Made by a program: the position numbers and the translations under genes
From: Bacteroidetes bacterium 47-18
Lineage (GTDB): Bacteria; Bacteroidota; Bacteroidia; Chitinophagales; Chitinophagaceae
DNA: 64,000 nucleotides
Assembly: GCA_001897155.1 (NCBI GenBank)
Contig: MKSF01000008.1
Span: forward strand, 1-64,000
Reading direction: 5' to 3'
Shown: piece by piece, positions 7,299 to 51,295 of the stretch
Numbering within the stretch: the first letter of the stretch is position 1
How the letters are laid out: each line of letters opens with the position of its first letter
Notes under the pieces: model-generated
Told to the model about the DNA's origin: nothing
The model's database searches: none
Seen by the model: only the letters and a program-made list of their open reading frames with translations

Positions 7299-7961
7299 AT
7301 GTCTACCTTCAAAACATCCTCTTCCAAAGAGAGCATCCTTAAAAAGATAAGAACCGCCTTACAGGAATATAAGGCGGAGATGCCATACCCGGATATGGGC
7401 AAGGTGGATTATGAGAAAGTGTACGCTCCCCCGGCGTACGAGGACCTGGCAACTGCTTTCGCGGAAGCGTTCGGGAAGGCCGGGGGGAAATTTGTCTTCT
7501 GCGCCAATACCCGGGAATTCATTCAGAACCTGGATACACTGGCTTCTGCCCATAGCTGGACACAGGTGGCCTGCTCCCATAAGGATCTTTTTACTTTCCT
7601 GGTCAATAACCGGGTAGGATACGTACGGGATATGGATCCCCACCAGGATAACTATGACGCCTGCATTACCGATTGCGAGGTGGCTGTTGCCCGTACCGGC
7701 AGCTTTATCTTCAGCTCGCGGCAGAATTACGGCCGTACGGCCCCGGTGTATTATCCCGTTCATATAGTGGTGCTGCAGCCGCACCAGGTGGTAAAGGATA
7801 TCAGCGACGGGCTGAAGCTGATGCGGCAGAAGTACCAGCAATCCTTACCTTCTATGATCAACCTGAATACAGGACCGAGCAGAACTGCCGATATTGAAAA
7901 AACATTGGTGACCGGTGTGCATGGTCCTAAAGAAATATACTGTTTCTGGCTAGAAAGCTAG
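7299..7961 (+). CDS. LUD-domain protein (LutC/YkgG type)
   Basis: A 220-residue protein of the LUD family, found in lactate-utilisation proteins LutB/LutC. It shows the usual layout: a helical N-terminus starting STFKTSSSKESILKKIRTAL, then a central region with DCEVAVARTGSFIFSS and a C-terminal VVLQPHQVVKDI strand. LutC normally works with LutA and LutB in oxidising L-lactate to pyruvate, but neither partner is next to it, so the assignment stays at family level. A -7-like box TATCTTTG is at 7270-7277, ahead of the ATG at 7299. The 3' end overlaps the convergent ribF gene by 35 bp. Confidence 0.8.
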   Translation: MSTFKTSSSKESILKKIRTALQEYKAEMPYPDMGKVDYEKVYAPPAYEDLATAFAEAFGKAGGKFVFCANTREFIQNLDTLASAHSWTQVACSHKDLFTFLVNNRVGYVRDMDPHQDNYDACITDCEVAVARTGSFIFSSRQNYGRTAPVYYPVHIVVLQPHQVVKDISDGLKLMRQKYQQSLPSMINLNTGPSRTADIEKTLVTGVHGPKEIYCFWLES

Positions 7962-8889
7962 CCGTATCTATGCCGGCTAAAAGCTGCCGTGCGTGCGCCT
8001 CGTCTTTTTTGAGCTGTGCGGTGAGCGCGTCCAGGCTGTTGAACTTCTCCTCCGGGCGCATATGCTCTATAAAATAGACCGTCAGGTTCCTGCCGTAAAT
8101 ATTTTCTTCAAAGTCAAAAATATGCACTTCGCAGGAGAGCTGTTGTTCGCTGCTTACAGTGGGGTTGGTGCCGATGTTCAGCATACCCTTATAGGCCTGC
8201 TCGTCATATTCCACCATCACGGCATATACCCCCTGGGCCGGTATGAGCACATCCGTATTATTAATGCTTAAATTGGCGGTGGGATAGCCTATGGTGCGTC
8301 CCAGCTGCCTGCCCTGCACAACATGGCCGGTAAGGGTATAATACCGTTCCAGCATATCGCCAGCTTCCCTTACCTGCCCGCGGCCGAGCGCGTGCCGTAT
8401 CTTGGTAGAGCTGACGGCGGCATCATCGATCAGCTGGGGAGCGATCTCTTCCACCACCACATCCCGGAGCACCTTTTTCAGCAGGTGGATATCGCCCTCC
8501 CTGCTATGTCCGAATTTGTGGTCATAACCAATAACGATTTTCCTGGGGTTGAAATACTTTATCAGGAAATCCTGGATATAGGCTTCCGCGTGCTGCATGG
8601 AAAAGTCACGGGAAAAGGGCACCACCACGATGTGGTCTATGCCCTCGTCAATGATCAGCTTATACTTCTCTTCGGGTGTGCACAGCAATCCCAGCGATAC
8701 CTCGGGGTTGATGACCTTTCTCGGATGGGGGTCGAAGGTGATGAGTACGCTTTCCCCGTTGATGGCTTTGGCCGCCCTGGAAAGCTCCTTCAATATCTTT
8801 TTATGGCCGTGATGTACGCCGTCAAAGGAACCGATCGTGATGACGGCATTCCTGAATTCCGGCAGTACATCTGTAAAATGAAATACCAT
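7927..8889 (-). CDS. ribF: Bifunctional riboflavin kinase / FAD synthetase
   Basis: A 320-residue RibF. It phosphorylates riboflavin to FMN and adenylates FMN to FAD in the cytoplasm. The N-terminal nucleotidyltransferase half carries GSFDGVHHGH (about 20-29); the C-terminal flavokinase half carries the GRTIGYPTAN motif, and the length is normal for the family. I chose the ATG at 8889 (MVFHFTDVLP); the frame runs on to a TTG at 8937 but those 16 residues match nothing in the family. No FMN riboswitch precedes it. The C-terminus runs 35 bp into the convergent LUD gene. Confidence 0.95.
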   Translation of the reverse strand: MVFHFTDVLPEFRNAVITIGSFDGVHHGHKKILKELSRAAKAINGESVLITFDPHPRKVINPEVSLGLLCTPEEKYKLIIDEGIDHIVVVPFSRDFSMQHAEAYIQDFLIKYFNPRKIVIGYDHKFGHSREGDIHLLKKVLRDVVVEEIAPQLIDDAAVSSTKIRHALGRGQVREAGDMLERYYTLTGHVVQGRQLGRTIGYPTANLSINNTDVLIPAQGVYAVMVEYDEQAYKGMLNIGTNPTVSSEQQLSCEVHIFDFEENIYGRNLTVYFIEHMRPEEKFNSLDALTAQLKKDEAHARQLLAGIDTASFLARNSIFL

Positions 8890-8976
8890 GGCTACGCTGT
8901 GTTGGCTGGTTATTGATTGCTTATCAAATCGTAGCAAAGATATTATTTATATGGTTAGGAAGAGGGTAATCTACTA

Positions 8977-10410
8977 TCAATTGCCCGTTACTTTTTTTCT
9001 GACAATAGTCTTTCCATCTACGACTTGCAGGATATAATCCGTATTATAGCTGTCTAATATTGTAGCATAAACCCGTTGATTTTTTTCAACATCGTTCAGT
9101 AATATCTTATCTGTCAGCCTTCTGCCTGATTGAAAATCGAAGCAGGTATAATAGTGATTTCCCTTGCGGGTTTTAGTAATGAAATATACCCTGTTATTGC
9201 TGATATTGAACGCTGCAACGGATTCTTTGATCTGAGCGGGAGATTCCAGCGGATTATCATATCTGGCAATATTAAAATAACTGACCTTTTTGTTGTCTAA
9301 AGGATAAATGGCGCTGTCTATGGAAAGCATGTACTTTTGGGCTGCACCGCAATAATGCAATCGGATTTCTGAATGGTCAAGCTTTGCATATACGGGAGGT
9401 AATTCCCGCTCTATTAGAGCAAGATATTCACACTTTTTCGTATTGGGATTTAAATAGAATCTGGATAAGTAGTAGTTTTTATTATTTCCGGCCTTAGGAA
9501 TTACTGATATATAAGCCGTATCTCCAGCTACAAAGAATTCGCTGCTGTGGATAGTGAAATAACTCTTTTCGGAATCATCTATTGTTTGGGTAGAAGTTCT
9601 GTTAAGCAAAAAAGTATTGAGATACTCGCCTTCTAATGTATATTGGAAAATAACCGGATATTCATAATATACGCCCATATTATTGACACGGCTGGCCATA
9701 GGAATAGTGGCGTATAAATGTATAACTTCGTTCTCTATACAATAATTGTAGATCTTTGCGCCGATAGGCGCCGCCTTGAGCCATTTCCGGATTAATTGCA
9801 GGGTTTCATCCTTTTTTACACTATCAAATAAAATGTCATAAGCTTTTAAAACAATGCTGTCCTGCACTTTATATGTTTTAACGCTCCTGTTGGCAATGTC
9901 TAGTCTCCGCAGGCCTATAACATCATTTAAGCTGTAGATATAATGCCCTTTCGCCATCAGCTTTTTGTCCAAATGGGATATGTAATCATATTTGTACTCT
10001 GCCCGATATATACTTGCATCAAAGCAGTTAAAAAAATGTACGATACCTTTGGTAAAGTCTTTGGATACACTACCTTCTTTCAATACCTCTTTATCCTTTA
10101 TGATTGTAAACAGTGACTGTGTACTATTAGCTGCAAATTTATTCGGGCTGTTAACAAACAATATTTTAAAAGATTCTTTATCAATACCATACAATGTTAA
10201 AAGTCTGTCCTTGTCTTTTTCTTTGGGTAATATAAACACCACGTCATAAATGCCGGTATCAATCTCCCGAACAGGGTACAGGGACTGCTTTTCCAGGGTT
10301 GTGTCTGCCGGATGAATATAGAAAGTATAAGTATACTTTTTAGCCGCGAGGGCATCGTTGCAACAAGCATAAAGAATAACAAAAAAGTAAAATACTCTAA
10401 ACTTCATCAT
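8977..10410 (-). CDS. Uncharacterised secreted protein, paralogue of the gene at 10466-11935
   Basis: I do not recognise a named family. About 477 residues with a clear signal peptide (KFRVFYFFVILYACCNDALA) if it starts at one of two adjacent ATGs (10410/10407). An upstream ATG at 10473 overlaps the previous gene by 8 bp and would add 21 residues. It aligns along its length with the neighbour: YDVVFILPKEKDKD against YDIFYVFSKEFSED near the start, and NTDYILQVVDGKTIVRK against DPNYILQVMNKNTIIRR at the end. The neighbour's CSAC is absent here. The strand-rich remainder suggests a repeat or propeller-like fold, but that is inference. The DNA is AT-rich. It is third in the operon. Confidence 0.7.
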   Translation of the reverse strand: MMKFRVFYFFVILYACCNDALAAKKYTYTFYIHPADTTLEKQSLYPVREIDTGIYDVVFILPKEKDKDRLLTLYGIDKESFKILFVNSPNKFAANSTQSLFTIIKDKEVLKEGSVSKDFTKGIVHFFNCFDASIYRAEYKYDYISHLDKKLMAKGHYIYSLNDVIGLRRLDIANRSVKTYKVQDSIVLKAYDILFDSVKKDETLQLIRKWLKAAPIGAKIYNYCIENEVIHLYATIPMASRVNNMGVYYEYPVIFQYTLEGEYLNTFLLNRTSTQTIDDSEKSYFTIHSSEFFVAGDTAYISVIPKAGNNKNYYLSRFYLNPNTKKCEYLALIERELPPVYAKLDHSEIRLHYCGAAQKYMLSIDSAIYPLDNKKVSYFNIARYDNPLESPAQIKESVAAFNISNNRVYFITKTRKGNHYYTCFDFQSGRRLTDKILLNDVEKNQRVYATILDSYNTDYILQVVDGKTIVRKKVTGN

Positions 10411-10465
10411 ACTATTTAGTTCAAAAAAGGAGATTTTAGTATGGTTGTATAACAGGCAGCCATAC

Positions 10466-11935
10466 TCATTCATTATGTACGTTTCTTCTTATAATGGTAT
10501 TCTTATTCATTACCTGTAAAATATAATTGGGATCATAAGGGTCTAAAATAATATTATAACATTTATTATCATTATCTGTTGAAAATATTTTAAACCTGTC
10601 CTTTATTAATTTTCCTGTTTTTAAATTTTTTACAGAGTAATAATAATCTTTATAATCGGTTGATATAACATATACCAGATTGTTTTGTACTGCGATATGG
10701 CTGATAACTTCTTTTATTTCAAAAACCGATTGTGGAGGAGAAGCGTATTTTAATACATCAATAGTTGTAGATATATTGCTATTGTCGGTAGTGTACAGCA
10801 GATTTTCCAGGGGCAGCATATAATATTTATAATTATTACTAAACACCGGGTTTATTATATTATACCCTATATAATCATAATTGGAAGGTAGCTGCCATTT
10901 TTCTATACCTGAATAATCACATCTTTTTGTTTTATTATCAAGATAAAACCTGGCAAAAAAATACTTGTTGTCCAATGCTGTACCATTATTTTCTTCAACA
11001 ATGGTAGTGTACAAAGTATCCTGTCTTATGTAAAATCCGAATGGAGCTATTAAAAATCTTTTATTTTCTTTGGATGCTGCCAGTTTATAATCTACATAAT
11101 ATTTCTCAAATATATGTGTACCTTTATATTCTCCGTTTATTCCCAGTTTGTAAATGGCATAAAAGCCTAATAAGGTTGTATCTAAGCCATTGGGATGCTC
11201 TTCTGCATAAGGCAATGTTGCACATATATAAATATCCTTATCCTCGCTGACAAAATATTGTTCCATTGTGGGCTCTATTTTGATGTTGCCTGATCTAAGC
11301 ATATTAAAGATCTTGCTTTGCTGCTCCTTAGAAAATATTAAATCATAAGTTTTTAATACCTGTTCTTTATCTATTTGATAGCTTATCTTATTTCCGGTTG
11401 TGAGATCCACCCTGTTGATGGAGCCTCCGAACATATTTTTAGAATATAAAAAATTATCCTTAACGAAGTAGTGAGATGCGCTTTTGTAAAATAAATCCCC
11501 ACTATAGTCTAAAGTATCGGCCTTATTGGAACTATACGAGTTAAAATAATTAACTAACTCGCTACCGAATTCGTTTTTGATAAGTCCTTTCTTTACGACA
11601 GTACTGTTTTTGATAACCAGGTAGGAAGACTGTCCATTGATGGTATGCGTATTGTAAATAGAATCATTAAAAATCAGCTTCGATTTTGTGGTGTCTATGC
11701 CCAGTGTAGCAATAATGAGCTGCTTATCTTCGGAAAACTCTTTGGAAAACACATAAAAAATATCATATTTATGTGGGTCAATAAATTTTACGTTCCCTAA
11801 AAAGGCTACACAGGCAGAACAATCCTGAACGTTTACATTAAACAGATAGGCATTTTTAACTTTAGTTTTATGTTGCGCAAAGGCATTAATACAGGATAAT
11901 GTTATAATGAATACAAGAAATAATACTCTATACAT
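10466..11935 (-). CDS. Uncharacterised secreted protein with N-terminal thioredoxin-like CxxC
   Basis: A 489-residue exported protein of no family I can name. Signal peptide at about 1-20 (YRVLFLVFIITLSCINAFAQ). The next ~100 residues look thioredoxin-like: Cys39-Ser-Ala-Cys42 after a short strand, then YDIFYVFSKEF, and SSYLVIKNSTVVKKG, which resembles the strand pair of TlpA-like proteins, although the usual cis-Pro is not evident. The long strand-rich remainder shows tyrosine-rich segments and no enzyme motif. The ATG at 11935 is preferred over the longer frame (to 11968) because it gives a proper signal peptide. It lies 88 bp downstream of the small Cys-rich protein gene with a hairpin between them, and just before its Cys-less paralogue. 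Confidence 0.72.
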   Translation of the reverse strand: MYRVLFLVFIITLSCINAFAQHKTKVKNAYLFNVNVQDCSACVAFLGNVKFIDPHKYDIFYVFSKEFSEDKQLIIATLGIDTTKSKLIFNDSIYNTHTINGQSSYLVIKNSTVVKKGLIKNEFGSELVNYFNSYSSNKADTLDYSGDLFYKSASHYFVKDNFLYSKNMFGGSINRVDLTTGNKISYQIDKEQVLKTYDLIFSKEQQSKIFNMLRSGNIKIEPTMEQYFVSEDKDIYICATLPYAEEHPNGLDTTLLGFYAIYKLGINGEYKGTHIFEKYYVDYKLAASKENKRFLIAPFGFYIRQDTLYTTIVEENNGTALDNKYFFARFYLDNKTKRCDYSGIEKWQLPSNYDYIGYNIINPVFSNNYKYYMLPLENLLYTTDNSNISTTIDVLKYASPPQSVFEIKEVISHIAVQNNLVYVISTDYKDYYYSVKNLKTGKLIKDRFKIFSTDNDNKCYNIILDPYDPNYILQVMNKNTIIRRNVHNE

Positions 11936-11963
11936 ATTACTGAATTTTATAAAGATGAGAGAG

Positions 11964-11988
11964 AGCATTGTTAGTGGCTAACAATGCT
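11964..11988 (-). other. Perfect 11-bp hairpin between the small secreted-protein gene and its downstream operon
   Basis: Inverted arms AGCATTGTTAG (11964-11974) and CTAACAATGCT (11978-11988) with a 3-nt loop. On the minus strand it lies between the stop of the small Cys-rich protein gene and the start of the CxxC protein gene. No T-tract follows on the minus strand, so it is not a classic terminator. An attenuating or mRNA-stabilising hairpin that raises the first gene over the next two is possible. Confidence 0.6.
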
Positions 11989-12023
11989 TTCCCTCAAAAA
12001 AATTATTTTATTAAATATTTTTC

Positions 12024-12332
12024 TTAATCGTCTGTAGGTTCGATAAGCTCATAAGCATTACCAGCCTCATCAATAAATACATTGAATGATACCAGGTCCA
12101 CCGGAACATCTCCTGACGGTGTTTTAAGAATAGCTTTATCTCCCGGTGCTGGTGTTGTCGCAGTGCCGCTACAATTAGAGCAATCAATACATATTTGAGC
12201 TGCGAAAAGACAAGAAAAATAAGTACCGCCGGGGGCGGCACCAGACCATTTAAACTGGCCGGCTTTGATCCATCCTGCGTTTGCTGCATAAGTTACTAAA
12301 GTCATTACTGAGCAAATTAATAATCTTTTCAT
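12024..12332 (-). CDS. Small secreted Cys-rich protein
   Basis: A 102-residue protein with a signal peptide (about 1-19, ending YAANA) and a mature part of ~83 residues carrying Cys41 and a C-x2-C-x2-C cluster (Cys48, 51, 54), then an acidic C-terminus (ELIEPTDD). I recognise no family. It superficially resembles small exported Bacteroidota proteins that come in tandem and are encoded with thioredoxin-like partners, but this is an analogy. First gene of a three-gene AT-rich minus-strand unit with the CxxC protein and its paralogue. A -7-like box TATTTTTG is at 12365-12358 on the minus strand; no convincing -33 element. The ATG at 12332 gives the intact signal peptide. Confidence 0.7.
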   Translation of the reverse strand: MKRLLICSVMTLVTYAANAGWIKAGQFKWSGAAPGGTYFSCLFAAQICIDCSNCSGTATTPAPGDKAILKTPSGDVPVDLVSFNVFIDEAGNAYELIEPTDD

Positions 12333-43815: not shown

Positions 43816-44511
43816 TTAAAAAGCTGCCGTTTCCGTCCTTGTCAGAAGTTTAGTTTTTTTTTTCGCTTGCGTGTCCGTATGTTGAAGAAATCCTTTCCAT
43901 CTTTCGCTTAGTGCCAGGCTAAATTTATTTATCGTTTCCTTTTGTGTTGCCGAACAGTTGTTACAGTTTGATTGGAGCTTTTTGATGTAGTTCCCAACAA
44001 CTGGCTTGTCGTAATTGTCTTCACTGATGATCCCAAACTCCAGCATTACAATGTCTGCCCAGGTCTCCAGGTCACTTTCAGTATGGCATTGTCTGCTGTC
44101 AAAGAAGGAAGCAAATTCTTCTGTGTTATTCAAGACATAATTGTAGCCTGCATTTCCAAGTCCTTCTGAAAAGTAGCCGTCCGATTTCTTTACTGATTTC
44201 GTTACGACTTTAAAGTAAAACGGTCTTAAAGATATGTCTTTTGCCGTTAAACCATCAAGCAGCGCCAGTGCTTCGTTATCGTTGTTTAAATTCCACTCAT
44301 GATCGAGATAAATATCTTTGGCAATTTCTGGTATTTCTGGATCTTTGACGAATACATCAAAGCCGCAATTATATTCGTCATTATTTATTTCGTTTTTGTC
44401 AACGGGAACCGGGTGGTCTTTTACCGTTGCATTGTCAATCAATCTTCGGTCCGCTGAACTGTTACAGGCAAAAAGTCCAAAAGTCAACAGTGTTATGAAT
44501 GTCAATTTCAT
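43816..44511 (-). CDS. Hypothetical lipoprotein
   Basis: A 231-residue protein with a lipoprotein signal (TFGLFAC, Cys16) and a Ser-Asp-Asn-rich start. A further five cysteines are scattered through the mature part, including NCNNC. The sequence is mostly alpha-helical in appearance (ESDLETWADIVMLEFGII; TINKFSLALSERWKGFL). A Lys-rich tail ends the protein. I recognise no family. The neighbouring genes on both sides are also orphan exported proteins in AT-rich DNA. Confidence 0.6.
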   Translation of the reverse strand: MKLTFITLLTFGLFACNSSADRRLIDNATVKDHPVPVDKNEINNDEYNCGFDVFVKDPEIPEIAKDIYLDHEWNLNNDNEALALLDGLTAKDISLRPFYFKVVTKSVKKSDGYFSEGLGNAGYNYVLNNTEEFASFFDSRQCHTESDLETWADIVMLEFGIISEDNYDKPVVGNYIKKLQSNCNNCSATQKETINKFSLALSERWKGFLQHTDTQAKKKTKLLTRTETAAF

Positions 44512-44625
44512 GATGCTGTATTAATTGTCTTGGCTGGCCACTGAACGGGCCGCCTTTTTTATTTTTTCGATGTTGCGTTGTGCGCTTTGTTGATGTTCCG
44601 CACCTGCCGCCAGATGTTATAAAAG

Positions 44626-45003
44626 CTAAAACAGGCCCCCGATCCTGTATTTGTCAACGGCCGGTTCTCCCCACAGGTTGTCCTTAACCATGTAAATCTT
44701 TTTGCAGTCTGTTAATTGATCACATATTGGGTCTGCCGGGCCCCAAGCGTAATTACAGGTTCCCATCCGTTGCCCGTCTTTGTCGAAAATAGTCATGCCT
44801 GCATCAAATGCGTTATGCATCCCGGTATAAACAGTCTGCCCATTGTATTTACATTCGCTGATAGATCCGTCTTTGTATATCTTGTACAGTTTTTTTAACG
44901 TCTTTTTGTTCTCAATTTCGTTCTTTTGGCAACTTGTTGCTACCAGTGTCAACATTGTTATCAATGTCAGAACGAAGCATAATATGGCGTTATTCTTTTT
45001 CAT
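44626..45003 (-). CDS. Small hypothetical lipoprotein
   Basis: A 125-residue protein with a lipoprotein signal (LVATSC, Cys25). The mature part has TVYTGMHNAFDAGMTIFDKDGQRMGTCNYAWG, followed by a disulfide-ready segment DPICDQLTDCKKIYMV. It looks like a small beta-rich domain, and I cannot place it. It is about 110 bp from the next orphan gene; a shared promoter is possible. It borders the long gene-free stretch that carries the MITE-like element. Confidence 0.62.
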   Translation of the reverse strand: MKKNNAILCFVLTLITMLTLVATSCQKNEIENKKTLKKLYKIYKDGSISECKYNGQTVYTGMHNAFDAGMTIFDKDGQRMGTCNYAWGPADPICDQLTDCKKIYMVKDNLWGEPAVDKYRIGGLF

Positions 45004-50425: not shown

Positions 50426-51295
50426 ATGGGAAATATAGCTACGAATATTGATACCCAGATTGAAACTCTTAGAAACAGAGGAATGCTCATTTTGGATAAC
50501 GAAAAGGCAAAAGAGCATTTGTTGGATATAGGATATTATCGATTAGGATTCTATTGGCATTATTTTGAAATAGACGATAATCATAATTTTCAGGAGCAAA
50601 TTCACTTTGACGACATTATCAAATTGTACTACTTAGATATTGACCTAAAGAACGTACTTTCTAAGTATATTTATAGAATAGAGGTACATTTTAGAACACA
50701 GGTAGTTTATTGGGTTTCCAATAAGTATAAGACCCATCCCGCTTGGTTTAATGTAGATAGTATTGTAGATAAGTCTTTCATAAAAGATTTTAACAGCATA
50801 TATACTAACTTAAAAATGTATAACAAGGCTTTAAAAAAGCATCATGAAAAATATACTAATGATATTTACGCTCCTGCTTGGAAAACCTTTGAGTTTCTTA
50901 CTTTCGGACAGGTTTTTAAATTTTTTTGTAGTTTAAAAGATAATGACCTTAAGGATGAGATAGCTAACCAATATGGCTTTAGAGATTATACCCTATTGAT
51001 AAATTTTTTTAAGGCCATTATTAACATTCGGAATATTTGTTCTCACAACGGAGTGCTTTTCGATTTTAATCAACCTATTGGTATTCATAGAATACCTAAT
51101 AAAAAATATAGGTTTAAAACAAGGAATACTACGAATTTAAATGCGTCTATTCGTTTGATCTTGTTTATTTTAAGTAAAATTTCTAAGAATAGGGCGGATG
51201 AGCTGGAGAATAATATAAAATCTATAGTTACCAACGCTAGCCAGAATACTTCGTTAAATACTATAATTAGGAATCATATTTGTTTGGATATTTAG
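50426..51295 (+). CDS. Abi_2 (AbiD/AbiF) family HEPN protein, putative phage-defence or toxin protein
   Basis: A 289-residue protein of the Abi_2 family. The N-terminus shows the family's first block: IDTQIETLRNRGM, then LLDIGYYRLGFYWHYF (about 32-47). The middle contains LKNVLSKYIYRIEVHFRTQV, and the C-terminal half has the HEPN RNase signature R202-N-I-C-S-H207 (R-x4-H) in IRNICSHNGVLFDF. HEPN proteins of this family are abortive-infection or toxin RNases and have been linked to Cas13 ancestry. The coding DNA is far more AT-rich than its neighbours, pointing to horizontal gain. A structured RNA gene with its own promoter begins at its 3' end. Phage-defence function is inferred. Confidence 0.85.
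   Translation: MGNIATNIDTQIETLRNRGMLILDNEKAKEHLLDIGYYRLGFYWHYFEIDDNHNFQEQIHFDDIIKLYYLDIDLKNVLSKYIYRIEVHFRTQVVYWVSNKYKTHPAWFNVDSIVDKSFIKDFNSIYTNLKMYNKALKKHHEKYTNDIYAPAWKTFEFLTFGQVFKFFCSLKDNDLKDEIANQYGFRDYTLLINFFKAIINIRNICSHNGVLFDFNQPIGIHRIPNKKYRFKTRNTTNLNASIRLILFILSKISKNRADELENNIKSIVTNASQNTSLNTIIRNHICLDI

Follow-up and report, generated by a model that had tools for sequence, protein, structure and literature searches.

The three AT-rich genes at 8977-12332 in the Bacteroidetes bacterium 47-18 genome stand between genes of housekeeping look and fit no described family, and the question raised by this locus is what a small exported cysteine-bearing protein has to do with the two large exported proteins encoded behind it. 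A preliminary description had suggested that the small protein is an export product or redox substrate and that the large proteins are its handlers. This interpretation was examined within the 64,000-nt stretch of contig MKSF01000008.1 that was analysed (the window) and across related genomes, and overall it was partly supported.

An AT-rich trio without a known family

The three genes are encoded on the minus strand in the order small gene, A, and B. The small gene (12024..12332, minus strand) encodes a protein of 102 residues, which has a signal-peptide-like start (ending AANA) and four cysteines in its mature part (C41, C48, C51, and C54), and which was aligned with relatives from six lineages. 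Large protein A (10466..11935, minus strand) is predicted to be exported, as is its paralogue B (8977..10410, minus strand), which is without the CxxC motif of A. The full open reading frames are longer, opening at 11968 for A (11968-10466, 500 aa) and at 10473 for B (10473-8977, 498 aa); the likely starts were placed at 11935 and 10410, respectively, because the position of the signal peptide sets them. The paralogy of the two proteins was borne out by their alignment (27% identity, E-value 9.1e-48), while the lengths of about 480 residues first given to them were corrected to 489 aa for A and 477 aa for B. A and B were the only two copies of the large protein detected in the 3.87-Mb genome, and a plasmid search with A gave no match.

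The GC content of the cluster was 0.342 compared with 0.487 in the rest of the window, in agreement with the preliminary description, and its flanking genes, named from sequence, are (i) riboflavin kinase-like (7927-8937); and (ii) tRNA methyltransferase-like (12498 on). Neither the small protein nor A or B had a fitting family in Pfam or NCBIfam, and A and B were without a Pfam match even at an E-value of 5. A relationship of B to CotZ was rejected as chance (16.7 bits, with a cut-off of 90). Elsewhere in the window, an AT-rich (GC 0.32) Abi_2-like gene (PF07751, E-value 2e-37) was detected between housekeeping genes at 50426-51295 on the plus strand and is likely an acquired gene of the abortive-infection type.

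A rare family of large proteins in Chitinophagales

Single-sequence searches found just two further copies of the large protein, both in a Taibaiella chishuiensis genome; it was profile searches, with profiles A1, A2, and A4 built stepwise in this analysis, that opened the family to a total of 22 large proteins from 12 genomes; most share 12-28% identity with A. By profile search, genus g33 carried three loci in each of two genomes, genus g13 had one genome with two tandem pairs and another with two copies, other genomes of the same family had single copies, and three further families of Chitinophagales also had members. Short weak matches (G407, G244, G697, G111, G162, G080, G254, and G093) were left out of membership, as were the matches of profile A6 outside the order, a search that covered 385 genomes across the phylum and gave no convincing member outside Chitinophagales. 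The large-protein family is rare, with 16 of 396 family genomes matching at an E-value of 0.01, several of these weakly.

The large proteins had been described as being of unknown family, and this held: no Pfam match was found at an E-value of 0.1 for 17 members, none of the 22 matched a PADLOC model of a known anti-phage defence system, and scans with Pfam, NCBIfam, PADLOC, and PHROG returned only chance-level matches. Of 18 loci compared, 16 had a cassette, or a large gene standing alone, that was GC-poorer than its flanks; AT-richness thus extends beyond this window and goes with the family. The trio is one member of an undescribed Chitinophagales cassette composed of small gene, hairpin, and large gene. 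The cassette and both of its protein families were absent from the libraries and literature searched, a search outside of which most subscription literature lay.

Small cysteine-pair genes directly precede the large genes

In a co-occurrence comparison of the kind called for by the preliminary description, scored by one automatic rule, a small secreted cysteine-pair gene was found directly upstream of 14 of the 22 large genes and of 1 of 163 flanking genes (Fisher P-value 1.2e-14, which overstates the significance because the 14 include three orthologous pairs). At these 14 loci, the small proteins are 101 to 209 residues long, carry a C-x(5-7)-C pair, and are encoded on the same strand as the large gene, with a gap of 54-123 nt when starts are set by signal peptide. 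The linkage was seen in six lineages and was retained across four families of the order though sequence similarity was nearly gone. As to the large genes without a small gene of their own, two are second in a cassette (B and the second large gene of L088), one (G012:C63) runs into the end of its contig, and five are alone (two Taibaiella copies and one each in G034, G284, and G288). A small-protein profile, when run against nine carrier genomes, recovered the known partners and none beyond them above noise, such that no small gene was detected without a large gene. Weak matches of the small protein in six other genomes were chance-like, as none of the three reading frames examined was a small secreted gene. 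No metal transport genes adjoined the cassettes in the neighbourhoods of the large genes.

Several loci had features of their own. The sole background match of the co-occurrence test lies within the window (43816-45003, minus strand), where a 125-aa lipoprotein-like small secreted cysteine-bearing protein, with a weak DUF6970 match below the cut-off, is encoded directly upstream of a 231-aa lipoprotein-like gene with no Pfam match, in another AT-rich stretch (42-46 kb). The Taibaiella large proteins with no adjoining small gene (L018:8825-10234 and L019:9796-11205) are lipoprotein-like, with LSSC and LIAC lipoboxes, and have CVSC in one copy and GVSC in the other; these orphan copies may differ in anchoring and role. 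Both G787 loci have two small genes ahead of the large gene, and the 333-nt gap between the two large genes of this genome (L088:7174-7508) has many repeats or hairpins of its own and no small gene.

The small and large genes were also found to duplicate together, with the nearest relatives in agreement for both genes in the G112 tandem copies, in G787, and in the G032/G193 paralogues. The similarity matrices of the small and large proteins were correlated (0.41, P-value 0.004, orthologues dropped), a relationship that partly reflects common descent. Within co-duplicated pairs, the normalised similarity was 0.30 for the small compared with 0.50 for the large proteins in one case and 0.24 compared with 0.40 in another.

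When the small proteins were compared, the C-x2-C-x2-C motif noted at the outset was present in the window (C48-C51-C54) and proved private to this protein; what is conserved instead is a cysteine pair spaced 5-7 residues apart, present in every small partner and in many relatives formed by their only two cysteines. Closer relatives share a P-x-x-G-x-x-V-x-I-Y type stretch after the pair, and beyond these two features the similarity between lineages is close to nil. Common ancestry of all small proteins is likely as judged by place and pattern, which do not prove it, and the 209-residue partner in G834 may belong to another family that has the cysteine motif in common. At this locus (L087:3515-6153), the motif is C-x6-C, and a further secreted cysteine-rich protein (238 aa, 11 Cys) is encoded upstream of the partner. 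The AF2 model of the window's small protein had a pLDDT of 41.

A hairpin in every gap between small and large gene

Between the small gene and A, a hairpin was identified at 11956..11996 on the minus strand (TGAGGGAAAGCATTGTTAG CCA CTAACAATGCTCTCTCTCA; MFE -24.7, z -6.6), with 20 nt between its end and the likely start codon of A. A strong hairpin was present in all 14 small-to-large gaps (stem score 9 to 17), and its sequence was mostly unrelated from locus to locus, with likeness detected only between orthologues. The position was more constant: at 13 of the 14 loci, 15-28 nt lie between the end of the hairpin and the start codon of the large gene. No hairpin was detected in the A-B gap (z -1.1) or in the small-small gap of L088 (z 0.7). 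For comparison, 59 background gaps between co-directional genes, 40-130 nt long, were scored, and 21 of them had a stem of at least 9. Stems that ended 13-30 nt from the next start occurred in 13 of 14 family gaps versus 8 of 59 background gaps (P-value 2.9e-8; 1.1e-6 with orthologues dropped), where the 13-30 nt bracket was picked after the data were seen and background starts were those of the longest open reading frames. The space from hairpin to start is too short for a promoter; thus, read-through transcription of the large gene, or its retention on a processed mRNA, is the most economical account. Most of the hairpins have no long T run such as a strong terminator would show, and the simplest reading of the element is that it would give an excess of small over large protein.

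Predicted domains of the large proteins

The AF2 model of A (five sequences; mean pLDDT 72.6, pTM 0.59) predicted a signal helix, a region of thioredoxin strand and helix order, a poorly modelled linker, and an all-beta region. Based on this model and on profile comparison, residues 28-133 (11537..11854, minus strand) were assigned to a TlpA/thioredoxin-like domain, and based on the model and a fold search, residues 150-489 (10469..11488, minus strand) were assigned to a beta-propeller. Compared with TlpA-like domains encoded in the same genome, the profile of the N-terminal domain aligned over 90 columns, CxxC falling on CxxC (score 33.4), while ten column shuffles and the reversed profile scored at most 11.6. 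Against classical thioredoxins, the match was confined to 15 columns around the CxxC (score 14.0, best shuffle 15.6). The earlier expectation of a thioredoxin-like domain is consistent with both the modelled strand and helix order and the TlpA-like profile match. Neither outcome that the preliminary description had named as refuting it, a small gene never linked to the large ones or a predicted structure lacking such a domain, was observed. For the C-terminal region, the best fold match was 3s9j, a Bacteroides DUF4221 protein (Z 15.1, 270 residues, rmsd 3.8), and XusB, a Bacteroides siderophore-binding propeller lipoprotein, was also among the matches (Z 11.3). Since the whole-model fold search covers mainly the propeller (residues 139-489), the absence of thioredoxin chains from it is uninformative on the N-terminal domain. 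The large proteins are predicted to consist of an N-terminal TlpA/thioredoxin-like domain followed by a C-terminal beta-propeller.

The thioredoxin-like CxxC of the preliminary description was located by alignment to CSAC at residues 39-42 of A (11810..11821, minus strand), which the model places at the start of helix 1 just past the signal peptide. The motif is found in A and 17 others of the 22 large proteins, and it is lost in B, where DTTLEK stands at the place of CSAC. The full motif is likewise missing from one Taibaiella copy (GVSC), G288, and G800, and the cis-Pro position opposite the CxxC is occupied in A by Ser103. That CxxC persists in partners so divergent speaks for a thiol chemistry that acts on the cysteine pair. 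With four members lacking it and no cis-proline, thiol chemistry cannot be general, and a role in binding is favoured for part of the family.

Relationship to known systems

Both folds are already known, as is their combination, from human NHLRC2 (PDB 6gc1), in which a Trx-like domain is followed by an NHL six-bladed beta-propeller in the same domain order as in A. NHLRC2 ranked 5 and 7 in a Foldseek search with the A model and aligned along the whole length at low TM-scores (0.32); a PDB sequence search gave no match. The two differ in that NHLRC2 has CCINC and a cis-proline, whereas the family described here has x-CxxC-x (CSAC in A, other CxxC in relatives) and Ser. The Trx-like domain of NHLRC2 is of the TlpA-like (Trx8) kind, and the bacterial homologues of the protein showed no conserved neighbours (PMC6107167), in contrast to the small exported cysteine protein that precedes the large gene here. 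Thioredoxin_8 (PF13905)/TlpA-like domains are alike by the CxxC-on-CxxC profile match, yet the present family is without a Pfam match at an E-value of 0.1, has Ser for cis-Pro, is fused to a propeller, and has lost CxxC in four members. The DUF4221 propeller (3s9j), though the best fold match, is 14% identical to the C-terminal domain of A, which has no Pfam match, and the matched 3s9j chain range has no thioredoxin-like domain. In Bacteroides, NVEALA-type small cysteine proteins adjoin 6-bladed propeller lipoproteins. These pairs, a tentative parallel, resemble the present ones in that a small exported cysteine-bearing protein is found beside a large propeller protein, and differ in that the thioredoxin-like domain and intergenic hairpin are features of the pairs described here, whose small and large proteins are without a Pfam or NCBIfam match. 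In the literature searched, no paper named NVEALA and none dealt with the present family.

Possible roles of the gene pair

Our preferred reading, held tentatively and at somewhat less than even chances, is that the genes encode a main exported product, the small protein, and a less abundant, dedicated extracytoplasmic redox or binding partner of it, the large protein. The small protein with its conserved cysteine pair would be what the cassette mainly yields, and the hairpin would hold the large partner at a lower level through transcription attenuation or protection of the small-gene mRNA. The beta-propeller may bind the small protein or the target of the small protein, and the TlpA-like CxxC domain may make, break, or rearrange its disulfide. 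In this genome the partner has been duplicated, with A having kept CxxC and B, which lost it, probably binding only. The export, stoichiometry, physical partnership, and redox chemistry of the pair are what we infer from (i) the linkage and co-duplication of the two genes; (ii) the CxxC in 18 of 22 large proteins and the cysteine pair in all small partners; and (iii) the hairpins in all 14 gaps. The four members with no full CxxC, the Ser at the cis-Pro position, and the five lone large genes weigh against it, and the small protein as redox substrate is put forward here, as in the preliminary description, as what may follow from these patterns.

The same features were weighed against other explanations. 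The patchy distribution, the AT-rich cassettes set between housekeeping genes, the tandem copies, the faster divergence of the small proteins, and the CxxC loss in four members would also suit a secreted bacteriocin-like or signalling protein that the large propeller protein neutralises or senses by binding, with the thioredoxin-like domain mainly a scaffold. We consider this unlikely, as 18 of the 22 partners retain CxxC despite their great divergence, the family libraries scanned gave no match to a known toxin or immunity protein, and no genes for a killing or sensing partner were seen. Rather improbable is an arrangement of two merely linked transcription units of unrelated functions, in which an ordinary terminator follows the small gene and the large gene has control of its own; about a third of background co-directional gaps (21 of 59) also have a stem of 9 or more and five large genes stand alone, but the hairpin and the large start are no more than 15-28 nt apart at 13 of 14 loci, too little for a promoter, most hairpins have no long T run, and four families have kept the linkage where hardly any sequence similarity is left.

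TlpA-like proteins elsewhere reduce the thiols of metallochaperones (TlpA/ScoI), and this precedent, together with the C-x2-C-x2-C of the window's small protein and XusB among the fold matches, points to metal or cofactor handling, in which the small protein would carry metal or haem via its cysteines and the TlpA-like/propeller protein would keep its thiols reduced or load the metal. This is the least probable of the explanations considered, as the motif is not conserved, many relatives have two cysteines only, 5-7 residues apart, and metal transport genes were not found beside the cassettes. More broadly, it is conceivable, though doubtful, that the pairs form a new two-part extracytoplasmic family in Chitinophagales, in which a fast-evolving secreted cysteine protein and a dedicated thioredoxin-propeller partner, their ratio set by a hairpin conserved in place and not in sequence, act in antagonism or signalling between bacteria.

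If the preferred reading of product and dedicated partner is correct, the cassette would define two linked protein families that have no Pfam or NCBIfam model. Small exported cysteine proteins of a class annotated as hypothetical would gain a partner and, with it, a role open to testing. The cassette would also be a simple example of how a hairpin can set the balance of secreted product and handler, and it places the Trx-plus-propeller architecture, whose function in human NHLRC2 is not understood, in the context of a bacterial operon.
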